DNA of 20,377 nt from a virus, in the IMG/VR virus record IMGVR_UViG_3300044302_005161, positions 1-20,377 of that record; one strand, written 5' to 3'. Positions 3,197 to 12,822 of this stretch are shown piece after piece (position 1 is the stretch's first letter; every line of letters starts with the position of its first letter). The position numbers were made by a program, and so were the translations under genes. Under the pieces are notes generated by a model. It had not been told where the DNA came from, ran no database searches, and saw only the letters and a program-made list of their open reading frames with translations.

Positions 3197-3405
3197 TTTA
3201 GGTTCTCCTTGCCATTTAGCCTATAATACTCTTGTTCAAGCTCCTCTACAAGAGAAGCAGTTTCTTTTAATAACGACCATGCTTTAAACCAGTATTTTGG
3301 GTCATCTTTGTTTTCATCCCACTTCTTATTTAATTCGTTTATCGTCCTTAGATTAGAGTCAATTTTAGATTTTGTCTCGTCATAAATCGAATCATCAATA
3401 AACAT
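3193..3405 (-). CDS. Small helical protein of unknown function, tail tip region
   Basis: This 70-residue acidic, charged protein is probably all alpha-helical: DETKSKIDSNLRTINELNKK and then SLVEELEQEYYRL. It contains an aromatic cluster (YWFKAW) near residues 38-43. The ATG lies inside the end of the hub gene, an 11-base overlap. Its stop overlaps the TTG start of the next gene, so it is coupled at both ends. No family was recognised. The position between hub and tip protein suggests a tip assembly factor or minor virion part, which is inference only. Confidence 0.7.
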   Translation of the reverse strand: MFIDDSIYDETKSKIDSNLRTINELNKKWDENKDDPKYWFKAWSLLKETASLVEELEQEYYRLNGKENLN

Positions 3406-5290
3406 CTGAATTCTCGATAACGGTTATTGTACCATCACCAGAAAACTTTGTACTCAAACCGTCAATATTGAATCTTACCGTCCTGATGATCATGTCTACT
3501 GAGATAGAGTCTTCTTCTCTTGTAAACTTTATACGATCACCAATGTCCAAATCTGTTCTAATGTCACCCACTTCAACATCTATGATTGTTTTATTGAGAA
3601 GTGCTTTTTGTGATTCAAGATAAGTCCTTGCATCATCCAGATTTTTAGTAACAGTAACTACGTCCTGTACTTTGCCACTATCTGTGTTGCTAATAAGCAC
3701 ACTCTGGTCTTTTTGATCTAACCTGGCTGGGCTTACTGTTGTGTTTGTGATATTAGTTGTCCACTTACTCCTAAATGCTTTTATTGGATACGGGATCTTG
3801 TAACCAGCGGAAATAATGTCCTTGTTCTGGATATTTGTAAAATCCTCTGGATTCTCAGCCCTGTCGATTACTGTTATTTCTTTATTCTTAATCCTAAAAA
3901 GATGATTTGAACCCTCGGCAACCTTTCCTGCAAAGTCAATCAGTTTGGTTTGTGAAGTAACCCAAAGTTCCAAGTTTTTAGAAGATGCGTTTGGTGCCCT
4001 TGTAAAGTCCATCGTGAAGTCATTATCAGGAAAAAGTTTCCCGGCTATATACTGGAAAAATTCTGCAACAGTTTGACCATTGCTTGAAAGCCCTGATACC
4101 AAAGCTGTGCCAACAAATACAGTTCCGCCTGCACCTGAATTACTTGAGTTCGTTTCAGTAATGTCAATCTGCCTGGATTTTATAGTAGTTGCGGTTGGTG
4201 CGCGAACAGTGCCGAAAAAATTACCAAAAACACCTAAGTTGTTAGATCCAGATGTGCCAGAAAGAGTTTCAGGACTGTTATTAAAAACCTTAAAACTATC
4301 TGAATCAATAACCTCTATTACTGTAAAAATTCCATTATAGTCAGTATGAGTTAGTCCTTTTATGGAAACCTGTGTCCCAATAACACAACCATGTGCACCA
4401 CTAGCATTTATGGTTACTTCGTCACCCAATTTAGAAACACTACTTATTGTGAGTGTGGTTCCTGTGTCTGAAGAAAGTGATGACCCAACCAGAACTCCAT
4501 CGTCAAATACCTGAAGTGGGTTGGAGTTGTCAGCAATCTTCATCTGCGGATTGTCAAACTCGAAACCATTAACCTTCGCTGTTTTGATCAAACCTTTTTC
4601 ACGGGTTACTCTACCAAAACTGAAAGGGGCATTTTTCTTTTGGAAGTGTTTGACTGTGAAACCTGAAACTTCAGTTGCGGTTGTGCTGCTTATGGAATAG
4701 GTGAAACTATTGTCATCAACTTTCGTTATTGATGATTCCGAAACATTGAAAGCACTAGTCGAAGAGTCTGTGACAGTTACCAAATCACCAGTGTTCAGGC
4801 CATGGTCGGGCGAATTCACAGTCGCAGTTGTGCCAGCAGAAGTGATACTTACTGCAGCTAATGTGGTTAAATCGGCATCTACTTCAACGGCCTGTTCAAG
4901 CAAGTCTTGGTCTTTAAAGCTGTCTTCTAACAGAAAAGAGAGAGTATCAGTGTTGTAGCTTTTTAGGTACATCGTTCCTTCAAACAAAGCATCGGAAACA
5001 TCGTTCTGCTCCCAATATATTTGCACCTCGATCTTCTGAGTAGGATCAGACAAAAGCTTTGCATAGCCTCCACTAAAAACAGAGAATGGGCTAAATCTAT
5101 TATCTGGCTGATTTGCAATGGTCAGATTCCCAAAACGTGTCCCTATATACCCACCCTTTACCTGACCAAACTCCAAAGAAGGATTCTTGGTAATGAATGG
5201 CGCATAATACGCCTTACCGTTATAAGCCTCTGTACTCATATACCAAGTCTTATTGTTAAATTCCATTTCGATTAGAAGTACATTGCTCAT
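3395..5290 (-). CDS. Distal tail / baseplate hub-like protein with two inserted HGL-type domains
   Basis: This is a 631-residue protein directly after the tape measure. Its ATG overlaps the tape measure stop as ATGA. The N-terminal ~140 residues (WYMSTEAYNG, then FGQVKGGYIGTRFGNLTI) look like the beta-sheet core of a phage hub. Residues about 145-213 and 275-345 are two copies of a domain with a DHGL or AHG motif, GDxVTV, YNG or FNV, and a V-D-x-(N/D)-S-F ending. The C-terminal part (LDIGDRIKFT, then MIIRTVRFNID and TKFSGDGTI) matches the ending often seen in siphovirus hub/tail proteins. By analogy it forms part of the tip that the tape measure plugs into. It could instead be a distal tail protein; distal-tail versus hub identity is not certain. 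Confidence 0.75.
   Translation of the reverse strand: MSNVLLIEMEFNNKTWYMSTEAYNGKAYYAPFITKNPSLEFGQVKGGYIGTRFGNLTIANQPDNRFSPFSVFSGGYAKLLSDPTQKIEVQIYWEQNDVSDALFEGTMYLKSYNTDTLSFLLEDSFKDQDLLEQAVEVDADLTTLAAVSITSAGTTATVNSPDHGLNTGDLVTVTDSSTSAFNVSESSITKVDDNSFTYSISSTTATEVSGFTVKHFQKKNAPFSFGRVTREKGLIKTAKVNGFEFDNPQMKIADNSNPLQVFDDGVLVGSSLSSDTGTTLTISSVSKLGDEVTINASGAHGCVIGTQVSIKGLTHTDYNGIFTVIEVIDSDSFKVFNNSPETLSGTSGSNNLGVFGNFFGTVRAPTATTIKSRQIDITETNSSNSGAGGTVFVGTALVSGLSSNGQTVAEFFQYIAGKLFPDNDFTMDFTRAPNASSKNLELWVTSQTKLIDFAGKVAEGSNHLFRIKNKEITVIDRAENPEDFTNIQNKDIISAGYKIPYPIKAFRSKWTTNITNTTVSPARLDQKDQSVLISNTDSGKVQDVVTVTKNLDDARTYLESQKALLNKTIIDVEVGDIRTDLDIGDRIKFTREEDSISVDMIIRTVRFNIDGLSTKFSGDGTITVIENSDVY
4256..4468 (-). 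other. HGL-type beta domain 2 inserted in hub protein
   Basis: Residues about 275-345 carry LGDEVTINASGAHG, IGTQVSIKG, DYNGIFTVIEVIDSDSFKV. The AHG / YNG / VIDSDSF spacing matches the classical form of this module better than domain 1. It probably arose as a copy or a second acquisition of the same domain family. Confidence 0.55.
4652..4858 (-). other. HGL-type beta domain 1 inserted in hub protein
   Basis: Residues about 145-213 of the hub protein carry DHGLNTGDLVTV followed by a VDDNSFTYSI strand. The pattern is His-Gly-Leu, Gly-Asp, a hydrophobic strand, then Val-Asp-x-x-Ser-Phe. It resembles the short module that profile searches often label E1 FCCH-like in phage proteins (recalled, not searched). 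It probably decorates the hub core. Confidence 0.55.
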
Positions 5291-8200
5291 GCGTAATTAA
5301 CCACATCTCGATATCCGGCTTCAGCAGATGACGAGTTTGAACTACTCATCATTTGACCAACTTCATCCTCGGTATTCGTGTAAACATTCACGTTCATATC
5401 TTGATCGCGAATTGCATCAATAATTCCTTGTAATAATGCTTCACTCATTCCTGAATCAGCAGCAATCTGTCCGCCCATTTGGTATGAGTCCATTCTTGAC
5501 TGCATGATTGACTGAGATGCAAGAAGAGGACCGATAATACCACCATCAACATATTTGCCAACCGGAGAATCATGAACAAACTGCCTGCCAAAAGATGACC
5601 TTTGAAGGTCTTGTGCCATGAATCCTGTTTGAACTGGACCGCCAGATTTGTACCGGAAGGTTTGCGGTTGTACCTTCCTGAGCATATCTGTTTGCTGGGA
5701 TTCGGTCATCCCTCCACCTCGGAAAGTTTTAACACCACGATCAGAGAAAATATTACCAACACTAGTGATTACTCCGCCGATATCTCCACCGATTGCACCA
5801 CCTATCCCTCCAAGAACTCCAGATATTACGCCACCCCCTTGCTTGTCAACCTTTTGTCTCATGTGGTCAACAGTCTCTTTGATATCTATAAGTTTGTTGT
5901 AGTTTGCAGGAGCATAAACAGTGTTGTTATACATACCAGCCAAGGTCCACTCTTGACCTTCACCTACGGAATATTGAACTTGCTTGATACCTTGTAAATT
6001 ATCTCCATTTTGGGCAGACAAATTCATGTAATATCGATCATTAGCCCTGCCGTCTCTCCCAACTTGTTGGCGAAGGTAATCTATGCCGGATTGGACAATA
6101 TTCCAACCAGTGTCAAATTTTTGAACGATGGTATTCGTCAGGTCAGCCATCAAATTCCTTAACAATTCATTACTCTGTTCTTGCATTGAAGTGTTATAAC
6201 TCTGACCCATGATGAGAGCACTCAATGCGTTGAAGTTTTGAGCCTGTGTCTCACTAATAGAACTGAGTAGTTCTGCAGATACAGCAGTGTTTTGCGCTGT
6301 AACACTATTTGTCAGATTAAGCTGACCTAGTTGTGTCTCGCTCGGGCCACCAGAATAGACAGATGAGAGAAATCCTGAATCACCAGTGTTCTCTGTGGTT
6401 CTTACTCCAAAGTAATCTGATGGATTGAATGAGGTTGATCCACCTTCTTGGAATGAATTGATTCTACTTAAAAGTCCTCTGTGCCTTCTTGTTGCATTTT
6501 TGTTTACTACAAATTCACCACCTTCAGCATAAATCGGGACACCACCCTTGGAATGGGAAGCACCATGGATCATTCCGCCTTTTGCATAGTATCCTTTGGT
6601 GGATTTCGCTCCTGGCCAGTAGGGGTGCATACCTGTTGCAGCCGCTAATACAAGTTGGAATGCTCCTGTAATTGACTCCTGGGCACTCTCCATTCCTTTG
6701 GCTGAGGAATTGTTAGGAAGCAATTTTTCACCCCAAAGCTCAACATCATGATAATAGTTTCTCAAAATTGGCGTGCAGGTTTCTATCTTCCCCCACCGTC
6801 TACAATTGGTAGGATCTGAAACGCATCCCCACGGGGTGCAGATCTCCCCCCACTCTCGACAATTTGAATAATCTGTTACACTTGTGCAACTTTCACCTGC
6901 AGTCTCTGTACCCTTTCCTATGAATGGGACAAGTGGGAGGTCAGGTCTACCATCATAAAAATCAGACCTTTCCCCCTTCTTGCTTGCAGTTGCCTTTGCT
7001 CCTAACCTTTTCCCGTAATACAAAGAATTAATTGCGGAATCAGTATTCTCATGTTTTAATTTTTGTTCAAAATTTAATGAACCACCATTCGCAAAAGCCC
7101 TAAAATAAGAATCTCCAATATCAGCAGCATTTTTCATTGAAAATTTTGCTTCTATTCCGTGATCCCCGATTTGACTAAAAGGCCAAGGCCAGTTCCTTGT
7201 GCTAAAACCTGCTTGAAATAATGTTTTAGGGAATCCTGGTGTGTCTCCATCGACTGTTCCTGCTGCAGTTGAACTAGCACTTGCGTAACCTTCGCCATCA
7301 ACGTTTTTTGTGGGCATACCCCCATTCCCAAATTTCTGATGACATGAACAACTTTCAGGCATCCCCCCATTACGGAAAATTGGTTTCCCTACAAATGGTA
7401 GTAATTCTTTTAATTTAGCACTTTCTAATACAGGAGGCCTATTAGCATTGCCATAAGTAGATTGCACATGGTGAGCCTGAGTAGGAGTCCGTACATTATT
7501 AATTAAGTCTAAAGTGGATTTGCCAAGCATATCAACGGATCTTTTATTTATAATATACTCTCCACCCTCAAATTCTATAGGCTGACCTGTCGCTCTAATC
7601 ACCCCTGGCATCCCTCCCGAAAGATGTGATTTCCCTACAGCCATACCACCAGAAGATCCCATCAGGCTTGAATGTATTGCGGTTCCTGCTTTAGTGTTTC
7701 CTCCATTTGCGAACTGTTCAGGAAGCAATCCGCCTTTTTCCCAACTCCAATTAATGAAGTATTCAGGACCTATGTTGTAACTATGGAAAGGGTTCTTTAA
7801 TAATTTAATTCCACCTGAAGGTACAGAAATATTGAAAACATCCGTTATTGTTTCACCTACACGTTTAATAATGTCTGCTCCAGCATTAAAACTAGATGAC
7901 CCAAAATTAAAAAATCCTGTAATTGCCTCAGTTGTTTTATTCCATATCTCTTGTAAGGCATTCATTGCCTGACCACCGAAGTCTAATGCTGCACCAAGTA
8001 TTTGTTGTCCAACAGATGAAAGATCTAGTCCTCCTCCAGTAAAGATAAGGTCAAAAAGTTGCTGGAAGAATGCAGTTATATTGACTGCACCCATATCAAG
8101 TATAGGCTTAAATATACCCATCAAAAAATCGCCAACCCCAACAAACACACCAGATATTGGATAGAAAAGTCCTGCAAGAAAATCAGGAACTCCAACTATA

Positions 8201-11200
8201 ATCTCTCCTATTGGGCCAAATATTCCTGCTAAAAATTCAGAAACTATATTACCAGCAGAGCTCATTGCATCCATGATGGGCCCCATGATTGCAGATATAA
8301 CCATGGTTGCCACATCACCGACTCCTGCAAAAGCATCTCCAATGAAACCAAAAACAGCGTTTAGTATTTCTGTAACTCCTGCTCCTAAGGCCTTCAATGC
8401 TTCCATGAATCCATCTAGGATTGCTTGGGCAAGACCAGAAAGTGAACCCCCTAAGTCAGGAAGTCCTTCTAATAGTTGTTCCAATGGATTTTTTGACTCT
8501 TCTCTGTCAAAAGTAACTCTTTCAACTGCACCAATCTGGATTCCACTTGATCCTGCTGATGTCCCGACTGTTGTTGGAGAACTTCCTATATTAAGGTTTG
8601 AAAGGTCTGAAGTTTTACCAGCATAAAGTGCCCGTGCCGTAGCAGGGTCCACGACTACAGGTACACCTGCAGCATTTGCAGCAGCCATCATTGAGAGGGC
8701 ACCGGCGTCTGTTGCTCTATCTAAAACCTCTAGTGACCCATCAGAATTTCTCCTCACAGAAACAGCATAGTGTTCGGGGTTCATGATCAAGAGGGCGGCC
8801 TGTAAAACCCTATTGTATATCCCTGAATCCACACCAGCACTACCTGCAGCAAGTTCAGACTCATATCCCCTCAAAGATGTAGTTGTGCCATCAGGATTTT
8901 TTCTAAACATTTTACCTTCCATAGAACTACTAGCCCTGCCTTGCTGTTCATCATACTGTCCCAGTCTTGCTTTATACATCTTCTCAAGATCCCCAATACT
9001 TTTTACAGTAATACCAGTATCTTCGTAGTCATAAAGACTAAGGTCGTATGCTATTTGTTCCTGTTTCTTTTGGAAAAATGTTTGAACATCGGCAATCGAA
9101 ATTATTCCTGCATTGAAATCATCTACTAAGTTTGTGAAAACTTCTCCAAGATCCGAACCCACTAAATCAAGATCAAATATTGCGTCACGAAATGCTTCTG
9201 TCAATGTGTCTGACGCTGATTTCATGTATTCTGTGTTTAGTGAATTGATATCAGAAAGAACCTGATCATAAATATCTTGGTATGCTGCCGAAGATTTAAA
9301 TATGTCCTGTGACTGTTGTAAAAACTCCTTTGAATATCCAGTAAAAGCATCAATTGCTTCTTGAGAAGCATCTGTTTTTGTCGCTGCCTCAAACAACTCA
9401 TCATATTTTGCTGCAGCATCTTCTAATTTCACAGCAGGTGCTGCCAGGTTTAAAGTCGATTGCTCAATATCAAATATAACATCATTAATTTTCTCTAGAT
9501 GGTCTGCAGTCTTACCAATCGTTTCTTCAATCTCTCCCAATATCCTCTCTTCTGAGGAAAGCAACGCTGCAGACTTGTAGCCTACATCAGTTCCGCTACC
9601 CATCCCTAATGCCCCTAAAATATCTCTAATACCCTGTCCTATAAACTGTAAAAGTATATCGACAAGAGCAAGTATCCCGTGCATGACTGCCTCGAACATA
9701 AAAAACAAAGGTTGCATCTGCTCAATTAAGCTCATGAGTGGGTCAAAAACTTTCATCATGCTAGTGAATACTTTTCCTAATGGTTTCATGACCATTTTTA
9801 GTATTCCAAAAATTGGCTTCATTCCTGAAAAAACATCTGTCAAAAGGTCGCCAAGAGGATCAATCAAAGCATCAAAAACTTCTCCAATCATTTCGAAAAG
9901 TTTTTCAATTGCTGCCTGGACTTTTTTATTAGACATCACCATTGACAAAAGACCTGCTCCAATCATTGCCATTGGACCTCCTGCTGATGCTGCTGCCGCT
10001 GCTTGGCCTGCTTGCATACCTCTTGATGCTGCAGGACCAGAACCAGATACACCACTTTGAATTATCCCACCCGCTTGTTCTTGGAAACTGTAGCTCTCTT
10101 TTTTAATATCAGCATCCAGTTCTAATTTTTTCCGTTTCTCAAGAATTTGCTGCAAAACATCATTATCAATTTCCTTTAAACCTACAGACTCAGTATTGAT
10201 ATCTATTACATCTCTTTGAGAACCAGCAAGTGCATCAGTTCTAATCTTAAGCATATCCATGCTAAGGCCAAACTCTTTAGCAATATTCATTATGCCAGTG
10301 CTAAAAGCAGAGGAAATTGGGTCTGAGGCACGCAACTGGTCGCCAAATTTTTTGCGAACTTTTAGTTCTGTTTCTGCACCACGAGTTTGGTTTCTTAATG
10401 CAAGAAGTTTATTTTGTTGTCTTATTTGATAAGTAATTTTCTCTTGAGCGCTAATCTCCTCTTTAACAAAATCCAAATGAATTTTTTGTTTAGGATTCAA
10501 TAACTCAACAGATGTTAATCCTTCTTTTTGGAGAAATAAAAATTCTGCTTCAGCTTGTTTTAGGGCTATTGAACCTATTAACGCTGCTTGGTCTAATTCA
10601 TAAATTGCTCTTTTTTCATTTAACTGAACTCCTAAAATAGCACTTCGATCTTGAAGATTACGAGTCTGTGCATTTGCACTTCTTTCTGATCTAAGTAAGG
10701 AGTCCTCATAGTCTAATTGAATGCTTAGTATTCTATCCTGCAAAGCTTGAATTTCCCCCGCAGTAGCTGCTGTCACAGCAGATCTTGCCATACCTGGGAT
10801 TGCACCACCAGGCTTTGGAAGGTGAGCAAACTCTTTTCTGCTATAACCTTGTTCCGTTAAAAATTGACCTCTAGCTTGACTTATCAACCCTTTAACTGCG
10901 GATTCTTTCAGAGTATTGTCATCCCCTAAAATCCCTTGAAGCAAAGCTTTTACTTTATCATTGTCTGGGAGATTAACACTAAACTGTTTTTCTAAAATCC
11001 TAACAATCTCCCCTCTTATATTCTGAGCAGAACTTTGTCTTGCAGTAACCTTTGCTAGACCTGTTGGGTCTGACCCACCACGACTTCTACCTCTTCTTTG
11101 ATCCCTTATCAACCCGGCACCTATGCCAGACTGTGCCGCTAATTGTTGAGCAATAGTTGCAGCACGTTGCCCCTCTGCAAGAAATAGATCCATTGCTGAT

Positions 11201-12822
11201 TGGGCTTGGTTTGCTTTTTGAATAGCAATACGTTTCTCTAAATCTGCAATACGTTGAAGAATTTTCTCTCTTTCTTTTTCTGCCTGTGTTAAATCTTTAG
11301 GTTTGCTTCCCTTTAAATTAGCACGACCTGGGTCCAACAAAGATGCACCACTAGCCATGCCTGATCTCCCAACTTGGATCAAAAATCTTTGAAGAAATCC
11401 AGGACCTTCGGCTAATTTCTTGTTTTCCTGATCAATGAAACGAGTGAAATCCTGAACTTGCTGTTTTAGTTTTGCTAATTGCTCAGCATTGGAGCCTGTA
11501 ACATTTTCCAAAACAGGTTTCGCGATTTCTCCAAAATTAAAATATGAGAATCCTAATGTAGTCAGTGCCGCAGATACTGCAGCAAGACCAAGGCTCACAG
11601 GACCTAATGAAACAACAATAGCTTTAAACCCCATTGCAATTGCAAAAAGAACCCCTGTCGCAACTATTGAACCACCAGCAATTAAAATTAATTCAAAATT
11701 ATTTGCAATCCCTCTTAACATCTCAGCAAATTTAATTCCGCCTGTGCTCTTTCCTGCACGATCTATTGCTTTTGATATCCTAGTAAAGGCATCTGCAAAG
11801 GCTTTATTGGTTTTTGTAACCTTATCAATACTACCAACAGCCATAGTTAGGGAGTTGTTGACTTGGGTCATTGCTTGACCAATTGTCTTTTGGATGCTCT
11901 TAAACTCTTTATCAACAGCATCAGAGGCTTCAACTATCGCTGCTTCTAAAACTTTAGTTGTCAACTTGCCTTCTTTAGCAAACTGCCTCATCTGGCCAAC
12001 AGTGATACCAATCGAACTAGATATGGCTTGTGCAAGTCTAGGTGCTAATTCAAGAACAGAGCGAAGTTCATCGCCTTGCAACCGACCAGATGCAAAAGCT
12101 TGTGACAACTGGATCATCGCATTGTTTGCCTCTTCAATCGTCGCACCAGCAATCTGGAAAGATTTACCAATAGTAGAAGTAATCCGTGCAAGTCTAGTGA
12201 AGTCTGTTCTCAACTTTGCAGAGTTTCTACCTATACGGGCAAGTGTATTTGCAACTGTAAATAAAGGCTGTCTCGTTTCTTGAGCAATGGTAAAAGCATT
12301 GCGCATATTTGTATTAAAAACATTCATGTCTTGGTTCACAACACGAACACGGTTGCTCATCAATACAAATTGATCGGTCATCCGTTTTAAACCACCTATC
12401 AATTGATACTGAATAAAACCAAAAAATGCCGTAGTCATACTCTGTATGAGATACGCATTTTCTTTATATATTTTATTTAATCGCGCAAAAATGGGGCCAA
12501 TTTTACTAGTCTTTCCCTGTAATTTTGTTAATTCAGTTTGCAGAGTCTTAACCTGCTTCTTCAGCTTCTCTACATCTGCTGCGCTAGTTTTTGATGCACC
12601 ACTTAGTTGCTTCAATTGGCGAACAGTGCTTCTTCCTGCCTGTGCAGAAATCAACATACTCTTCTGTATCCCGCCAAATGTTTTTTCCATCTGGCCGAGA
12701 AACTTGTTTGTGCCTTTTGTAGCTTTAGAAACTCTAAGGAGGGAGCCCTCAATATTCTTGAAGGCCTTATTTGTACGGCCTAGGTCAACTTTTACATCAA
12801 CTAGTGCGGTATAATTCGCCAT
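5287..12822 (-). CDS. Tape measure protein, giant, with C-terminal S74-like domain
   Basis: The tape measure fixes tail length and helps DNA pass into the cell. At 2511 residues it is very long for the family. Residues ~1-130 are charged and helical. Residues ~130-330 match the conserved tape measure N-terminal domain: SGRLQGDELRSVLELAPRLA and then VGQMRQFAKEGKLTTKVL. Hydrophobic segments lie at ~377-427, ~940-1070 and ~1455-1640, and long helical, coiled-coil-like stretches at ~515-910. The C-terminal third is different: Gly-rich, with two GGEYIINK/GGEFVVNK modules (~1723-1775 and ~2081-2124), a six-cysteine patch (1979-2016), and an S74-like domain from Ser2360. The ATG follows the chaperone stop with no gap (TAGATG). 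The TGA overlaps the hub ATG. Identity as a tape measure is secure; the meaning of the tail end is inferred. Confidence 0.95.
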   Translation of the reverse strand: MANYTALVDVKVDLGRTNKAFKNIEGSLLRVSKATKGTNKFLGQMEKTFGGIQKSMLISAQAGRSTVRQLKQLSGASKTSAADVEKLKKQVKTLQTELTKLQGKTSKIGPIFARLNKIYKENAYLIQSMTTAFFGFIQYQLIGGLKRMTDQFVLMSNRVRVVNQDMNVFNTNMRNAFTIAQETRQPLFTVANTLARIGRNSAKLRTDFTRLARITSTIGKSFQIAGATIEEANNAMIQLSQAFASGRLQGDELRSVLELAPRLAQAISSSIGITVGQMRQFAKEGKLTTKVLEAAIVEASDAVDKEFKSIQKTIGQAMTQVNNSLTMAVGSIDKVTKTNKAFADAFTRISKAIDRAGKSTGGIKFAEMLRGIANNFELILIAGGSIVATGVLFAIAMGFKAIVVSLGPVSLGLAAVSAALTTLGFSYFNFGEIAKPVLENVTGSNAEQLAKLKQQVQDFTRFIDQENKKLAEGPGFLQRFLIQVGRSGMASGASLLDPGRANLKGSKPKDLTQAEKEREKILQRIADLEKRIAIQKANQAQSAMDLFLAEGQRAATIAQQLAAQSGIGAGLIRDQRRGRSRGGSDPTGLAKVTARQSSAQNIRGEIVRILEKQFSVNLPDNDKVKALLQGILGDDNTLKESAVKGLISQARGQFLTEQGYSRKEFAHLPKPGGAIPGMARSAVTAATAGEIQALQDRILSIQLDYEDSLLRSERSANAQTRNLQDRSAILGVQLNEKRAIYELDQAALIGSIALKQAEAEFLFLQKEGLTSVELLNPKQKIHLDFVKEEISAQEKITYQIRQQNKLLALRNQTRGAETELKVRKKFGDQLRASDPISSAFSTGIMNIAKEFGLSMDMLKIRTDALAGSQRDVIDINTESVGLKEIDNDVLQQILEKRKKLELDADIKKESYSFQEQAGGIIQSGVSGSGPAASRGMQAGQAAAAASAGGPMAMIGAGLLSMVMSNKKVQAAIEKLFEMIGEVFDALIDPLGDLLTDVFSGMKPIFGILKMVMKPLGKVFTSMMKVFDPLMSLIEQMQPLFFMFEAVMHGILALVDILLQFIGQGIRDILGALGMGSGTDVGYKSAALLSSEERILGEIEETIGKTADHLEKINDVIFDIEQSTLNLAAPAVKLEDAAAKYDELFEAATKTDASQEAIDAFTGYSKEFLQQSQDIFKSSAAYQDIYDQVLSDINSLNTEYMKSASDTLTEAFRDAIFDLDLVGSDLGEVFTNLVDDFNAGIISIADVQTFFQKKQEQIAYDLSLYDYEDTGITVKSIGDLEKMYKARLGQYDEQQGRASSSMEGKMFRKNPDGTTTSLRGYESELAAGSAGVDSGIYNRVLQAALLIMNPEHYAVSVRRNSDGSLEVLDRATDAGALSMMAAANAAGVPVVVDPATARALYAGKTSDLSNLNIGSSPTTVGTSAGSSGIQIGAVERVTFDREESKNPLEQLLEGLPDLGGSLSGLAQAILDGFMEALKALGAGVTEILNAVFGFIGDAFAGVGDVATMVISAIMGPIMDAMSSAGNIVSEFLAGIFGPIGEIIVGVPDFLAGLFYPISGVFVGVGDFLMGIFKPILDMGAVNITAFFQQLFDLIFTGGGLDLSSVGQQILGAALDFGGQAMNALQEIWNKTTEAITGFFNFGSSSFNAGADIIKRVGETITDVFNISVPSGGIKLLKNPFHSYNIGPEYFINWSWEKGGLLPEQFANGGNTKAGTAIHSSLMGSSGGMAVGKSHLSGGMPGVIRATGQPIEFEGGEYIINKRSVDMLGKSTLDLINNVRTPTQAHHVQSTYGNANRPPVLESAKLKELLPFVGKPIFRNGGMPESCSCHQKFGNGGMPTKNVDGEGYASASSTAAGTVDGDTPGFPKTLFQAGFSTRNWPWPFSQIGDHGIEAKFSMKNAADIGDSYFRAFANGGSLNFEQKLKHENTDSAINSLYYGKRLGAKATASKKGERSDFYDGRPDLPLVPFIGKGTETAGESCTSVTDYSNCREWGEICTPWGCVSDPTNCRRWGKIETCTPILRNYYHDVELWGEKLLPNNSSAKGMESAQESITGAFQLVLAAATGMHPYWPGAKSTKGYYAKGGMIHGASHSKGGVPIYAEGGEFVVNKNATRRHRGLLSRINSFQEGGSTSFNPSDYFGVRTTENTGDSGFLSSVYSGGPSETQLGQLNLTNSVTAQNTAVSAELLSSISETQAQNFNALSALIMGQSYNTSMQEQSNELLRNLMADLTNTIVQKFDTGWNIVQSGIDYLRQQVGRDGRANDRYYMNLSAQNGDNLQGIKQVQYSVGEGQEWTLAGMYNNTVYAPANYNKLIDIKETVDHMRQKVDKQGGGVISGVLGGIGGAIGGDIGGVITSVGNIFSDRGVKTFRGGGMTESQQTDMLRKVQPQTFRYKSGGPVQTGFMAQDLQRSSFGRQFVHDSPVGKYVDGGIIGPLLASQSIMQSRMDSYQMGGQIAADSGMSEALLQGIIDAIRDQDMNVNVYTNTEDEVGQMMSSSNSSSAEAGYRDVVNYA
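5443..5745 (-). other. Peptidase S74-like (intramolecular chaperone) domain at tape measure C-terminus
   Basis: Residues ~2360-2460 read SDRGVK, then LRKVQPQTFRYK, GFMAQDLQ, then V-x-KYVDGG-IIGPLLASQ. This follows the order of S74 domains from endosialidases and tail fibres: SDxxxK at the cleavage site, an L-x-P-x-F-Y-K strand, GF(I/M)AQ-(D/E), then a helix. The Ser-Lys pair known to act in self-cleavage is kept at the usual spacing (Ser2360, Lys2365). A short Gly-rich insertion follows the lysine. If active, cleavage before Ser2360 would release a 152-residue C-terminal piece. Confidence 0.7.
6770..6888 (-). other. Cysteine-rich repeat in the tape measure C-terminal region
   Basis: Residues 1979-2018 hold six cysteines in ~38 positions, as two imperfect copies of N-C-R-x-W-G-x-I-(x)-C-T-P: NCREWGEICTP and NCRRWGKIETCTP. 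Two more cysteines lie at 1825 and 1827 (SCSC). The other tape measure regions have none. The function is unknown; disulfide or metal binding are both possible. Confidence 0.8.

Follow-up and report, generated by a model that had tools for sequence, protein, structure and literature searches.

The tape measure protein encoded in the window (the whole stretch of DNA that we analyzed, a 20,377-base IMG/VR virus record) ends in a genuine domain of the S74/ICA family, and the open reading frame that joins the two has no break over its 2511 codons (Table 1). The earlier note on this DNA had placed an S74 domain in frame on a tape measure, and both halves of that claim were confirmed by profile searches. 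The full protein matches TMP_3 (PF20155) at 161 bits (cut-off 41), and it also matches TIGR02675 at 69 bits and 20 PHROG tape-measure families. The S74 domain itself is known but its setting on a tape measure is new to the searches described here. On balance, and without great confidence, we lean toward a proposal in which this built-in domain trimerizes the tape measure, cuts it at F2359/S2360 and bares a membrane-seeking end.

Table 1. Features of the tape measure gene, with positions in the window
Feature	Position	Strand	Basis or remark
Tape measure gene	5287..12822	-	2511 aa, 270 kDa; profile matches
TMP_3 tape-measure domain, residues 147-334	11821..12384	-	PF20155, 161 bits
FlhB/SctU cytoplasmic-domain-like region, residues 1336-1401	8620..8817	-	PF01312
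NPEH, residues 1348-1351	8781-8770	-	Alignment with FlhB, whose self-cleavage motif is NPTH
Hydrophobic glycine-zipper segment, residues 2328-2359; chained GxxxG, 2331-2350	5746..5841	-	Sequence and hydrophobicity
Predicted scissile bond F2359-S2360	directly before SDRGVK	-	Analogy with MyRF S587/K592
S74/ICA domain core, residues 2360-2440	5503..5745	-	Profiles, alignment, predicted fold
SDRGVK, residues 2360-2365; predicted catalytic Ser2360 and Lys2365	5728..5745	-	Motif, alignment, MyRF S587/K592 analogy
QPQTFRYK, residues 2385-2392	5670-5647	-	Motif reading
GFMAQDLQ, residues 2400-2407	5602..5625	-	Motif reading, alignment
SPVGKYVD, residues 2419-2426	5545..5568	-	Motif common to virion-protein S74 subgroup
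Additional C-terminal tail past the S74 domain, residues 2458-2511	5290..5451	-	Missing from most relatives

The motifs SDRGVK, QPQTFRYK and GFMAQDLQ occur in the order and at the positions that had been claimed for them, and both members of the Ser-Lys pair, S2360 and K2365, are retained as judged by motif reading and by our alignment of relatives, A4. The Pfam S74 profile (PF13884, cut-off 22) is matched at 24.3 bits (E 8e-7) in a six-frame scan, at 22.3 bits by the C-terminal 194 residues alone, and at 18.9 bits, below the cut-off, by the full 2511-residue protein. As the alignment to this profile begins at model position 13-14, SDxxxK is not covered by the Pfam match; the probability of a chance SDxxxK 15-45 residues upstream of MAQ is ~0.008 given the composition of the tape measure protein. 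A short insertion is present after SDRGVK, the relatives have a stronger C-terminal coiled coil, and no counterpart of endoNF Arg897 was mapped in the domain, all of which counts against the proposal; the tape measure C-terminus is known from one sequence only.

Fold prediction also returned S74. The AlphaFold2 model, built with the A4 alignment, has a pLDDT of ~70-92 over model residues 51-130 (roughly 2368-2447) and a long helix at model residues 110-139, while the model is unreliable ahead of the Ser (pLDDT <50). Its top PDB match in Foldseek was the ICA domain of MyRF (probability 0.97, E 0.03), and its BFVD matches had probabilities of 0.99-1.00, the named ones being S74, fiber, baseplate or other tail-structure proteins. 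Similarly, VIA-align ranked four solved ICA domains first, those of endoNF, MyRF, the T5 L-shaped fiber and the GA-1 neck appendage, at Z 5.7-6.8 versus 3.2 for the next-best match; Z values below 8 are generally modest, and the weight of this result lies in the four ICA domains together standing above all others. In addition, the A4 profile matches three solved phage proteins (E 0.001-0.006); one of these is GA-1 3gud, in which the aligned Ser is the first residue of the chain. The C-terminal domain is thus predicted to have the ICA fold.

The closest relatives of the domain are not tail-fiber domains. They are ~80 IMG/VR proteins (L014-L106) of 190-970 residues, mostly helical and rich in Ala and Gln, which short-tail-like phages encode within their block of virion genes; upstream of them, in the genomes examined, lies a gene for ~1000 residues which in most cases matches families of internal virion or structural proteins. 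A degenerate search yielded 14 and then 80 viral loci, plus two genome loci; 86 loci were read, one of them (L071) incomplete, and 77 distinct intact members were analyzed. The alignments by which the search was widened (A2 and A3) include hand-written consensus-like rows; A4, the fold and the models were built from real relatives only. PF13884 is matched by 11 of the 11 A4 rows, in which Ser, Asp, Lys, Tyr-Lys, Met-Ala-Gln and Pro-x-Gly-Lys are invariant, and SDxxxK is kept in 84 of the 85 intact relatives. L059, an ORF at the end of its locus, has SDKEVA at this place with the Lys lost, and is a candidate for a naturally non-cutting member. SDxxxK usually lies directly behind the most hydrophobic stretch of the relative, the 35 residues before the Ser being in the top 2% for hydrophobicity in 53 of 77 proteins and in the top 10% in 65 of them. 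When a model is built from the 77 relatives with the window left out, it scores the window at 56.8 bits, and this score, the S74-like fold and the spacing of SDxxxK together put the S74 identity well beyond chance. A literature search on S74 and internal virion proteins returned no description of such a helical, Ala/Gln-rich S74 group; we infer that these S74-bearing virion proteins act in ejection.

What would such a domain do at the end of a tape measure? Its place is suggestive. The dyad sits right after a glycine-zipper segment whose hydrophobicity is no more than moderate (19-residue mean 1.27), and this glycine-rich lead-in differs from the trimeric beta-structured part that precedes S74 in proteins of the fiber/spike type; a beta-helix stalk before the S74 domain is absent from the tape measure. 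ICA domains form trimers via a C-terminal coiled coil, and their Ser-Lys dyad cuts the chain before the Ser (PMC8326128, PMC3742443), a cleavage that requires the dyad and the trimer, the upstream stalk being dispensable in MyRF (PMC8326128). Two tape measures, T5 pb2 and lambda gpH, undergo a cut close to the C-terminus while the phage assembles, and in pb2, which is a trimer, the cut separates a hydrophobic stretch from the C-terminal domain (PMC10038345). In tape measures of Burkholderia prophages, glycine zippers that overlap membrane segments have been noted within the C-terminal part (PMC10240207).

The order in the window, a chained zipper followed by F2359-S2360, and the T5 pb2 precedent lead us to propose a built-in cut that would free the zipper. 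During tail assembly the S74/ICA domain would gather three tape-measure C-termini and, after the trimer had formed, Ser2360 and Lys2365 would cleave the chain between F2359 and S2360. The predicted products are a mature tape measure of 253.5 kDa with a glycine-zipper end, such as T5 obtains for its hydrophobic stretch by a separate cleavage, and a C-terminal piece of 16.5 kDa; the freed hydrophobic end may then act at the host membrane in DNA ejection, and the cut would double as a check on trimer formation. The earlier note's idea of a built-in S74 that trims the tape measure is in keeping with this position, since the predicted cut falls right behind the zipper and resembles that of pb2, while the cleavage itself is a prediction. 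If the proposal is true, then cut, cutter and trimer check are combined in one tape-measure chain.

Could the domain instead be a trimerization clamp only, in which cutting has been lost and the C-terminal piece remains attached at the tail tip? The insertion after SDRGVK, the lack of a beta-stalk and the long branch on which the window falls in our tree (2.2 changes per column) would all fit a clamp, and L059, having no Lys, means that non-cutting S74 members are possible. However, the window keeps SDxxxK on that fast-evolving branch, with Ser, Asp, Lys, MAQ and GK-VD all retained, and we regard a clamp that no longer cuts as possible but rather unlikely.

The suggestion that the domain was captured from a fiber gene has fared less well. 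A tail-fiber S74 recently captured by the tape measure, and retained by chance or as a relic, would be in keeping with the GC content of the S74 stretch (0.465 versus 0.407 for the tape measure gene). The tree, in which fibers are split from the rest with support of 98/95, does not reject a grouping of the window with the fibers (p-AU 0.81), the window's position in it being not firm and the domain too short to give its origin. Against this, a 13-sequence model of fiber and surface S74 domains scores the window at 13.7 bits as compared with the 56.8 bits of the non-fiber virion-protein model, a comparison that is biased toward the relatives because they were collected by similarity to the window and that, with so small a fiber set, favors rather than proves non-fiber kinship. 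Also, the motif [ST]PxGKxVD and the hydrophobic lead-in are common to the tape measure domain and the non-fiber relatives. We consider a recent capture improbable.

That a tape measure was joined to the S74 end of another gene in assembly is very hard to credit, because even though all further contigs of this phage stop at tape measure residue 655 or 619, such that the C-terminus depends on one assembly, the reading frame is intact throughout, the stop codon shares ATGA with the start of the next gene, which makes the S74 domain the natural end of the tape measure gene, and the order of tail genes around it is ordinary. A P22-type major head protein and neck and tail-terminator proteins are encoded in the same window, as judged by profile matches. 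Two stretches of the gene after the tape measure (3395-5290, minus strand) weakly match PF12195, a phage endosialidase beta barrel domain, below the cut-off, and a search for relatives of the neighboring tail gene found none. Within the tape measure itself, residues 1977-2018 in the C-terminal third (6769-6894, minus strand) are rich in Cys and Trp, and the motif EGGE[YF][IV][IV]NK occurs twice (7543-7572 and 6499-6531, minus strand).

How unusual is the arrangement? Our survey was a sample, and tape-measure families other than PF20155 exist. On 40 other TMP_3 frames the S74 models scored at best 7.6 bits or less, versus 57-58 for the window, and across 379 genomes from a single phylum the 63 S74 places and the 54 TMP_3 places had no gene in common; nine long S74 frames in those genomes were read and are not tape measures. 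A generic S74 query matches 1614 phage records, and none of the 120 listed, comprising the best matches and a spread of the rest, is annotated as a tape measure. Single-sequence scans of viral and genome contigs found no close relatives of the C-terminus, a tblastn search of 50,697 phages with it gave one weak match that is not a tape measure, and a DNA pattern for GFMAQDLQ gave two chance matches and one fiber. A literature search found no description of a tape measure with S74.

A second module lies in mid-protein, where a region resembles the cytoplasmic domain of FlhB/SctU. PF01312 is matched at 39.2 bits (E 4.7e-12) in a six-frame scan and at 34.3 bits on the full tape measure, and phmmer matches the region to solved FlhB at E 5.5e-5; the lectins ranked at the top of that phmmer list are summed over repeats, with no single stretch passing, and are not counted as relatives. 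Only positions 245-312 of 335 in PF01312 match, the N-terminal membrane domain of FlhB being absent from the tape measure. No phage relatives of the region were found, its sole viral-contig match being an ordinary host flhB adjoining a prophage. A single-sequence structure model (pLDDT 47) is too low in confidence for use, and the GC content of residues 1321-1410 is 0.496 versus 0.407 for the tape measure gene. NPEH, which stands where FlhB has NPTH, may be a second self-cleavage site. A broader scheme can be drawn, in which two self-cleaving modules, FlhB-like NPxH and S74, would divide the tape measure into three pieces without a separate protease (146.5, 107.0 and 16.5 kDa if both sites are active) and S74 would widely bare the membrane-seeking ends of virion proteins; as a whole we find it doubtful.

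Among known systems, the S74/ICA domains of endoNF, the T5 L-shaped fiber and the GA-1 neck appendage share with the tape measure domain its predicted fold, the SDxxxK dyad, the FxYK and G-[IFM]-AQ motifs and a C-terminal position, but they stand behind beta-structured trimeric fiber or spike parts, whereas here the domain stands on a tape measure with a zipper lead-in. The MyRF ICA domain (PDB 7dc3) is alike in fold, in its Ser-Lys dyad and in having a function outside the phage fiber; in MyRF the domain lies between a beta-helical stalk and a membrane segment that follows, whereas here the hydrophobic segment precedes the domain. T5 pb2 resembles our proposal in being a trimer and in the site of its C-terminal cut, with a hydrophobic stretch on one side and the C-terminal domain on the other (PMC10038345), although no S74 has been described in pb2, where the C-terminal domain acts as a muralytic peptidase and is not self-cutting. 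The IMG/VR virion proteins are none of them of tape-measure size and, in the genomes examined, adjoin an internal-virion-like gene, unlike here, but they share with the tape measure the MAQDL and [ST]PxGK-VD motifs and a hydrophobic segment of small residues directly before SDxxxK. The recurrence of this layout in ~80 proteins of phage particles suggests a role for S74 beyond fibers, in the timed exposure of hydrophobic ends.
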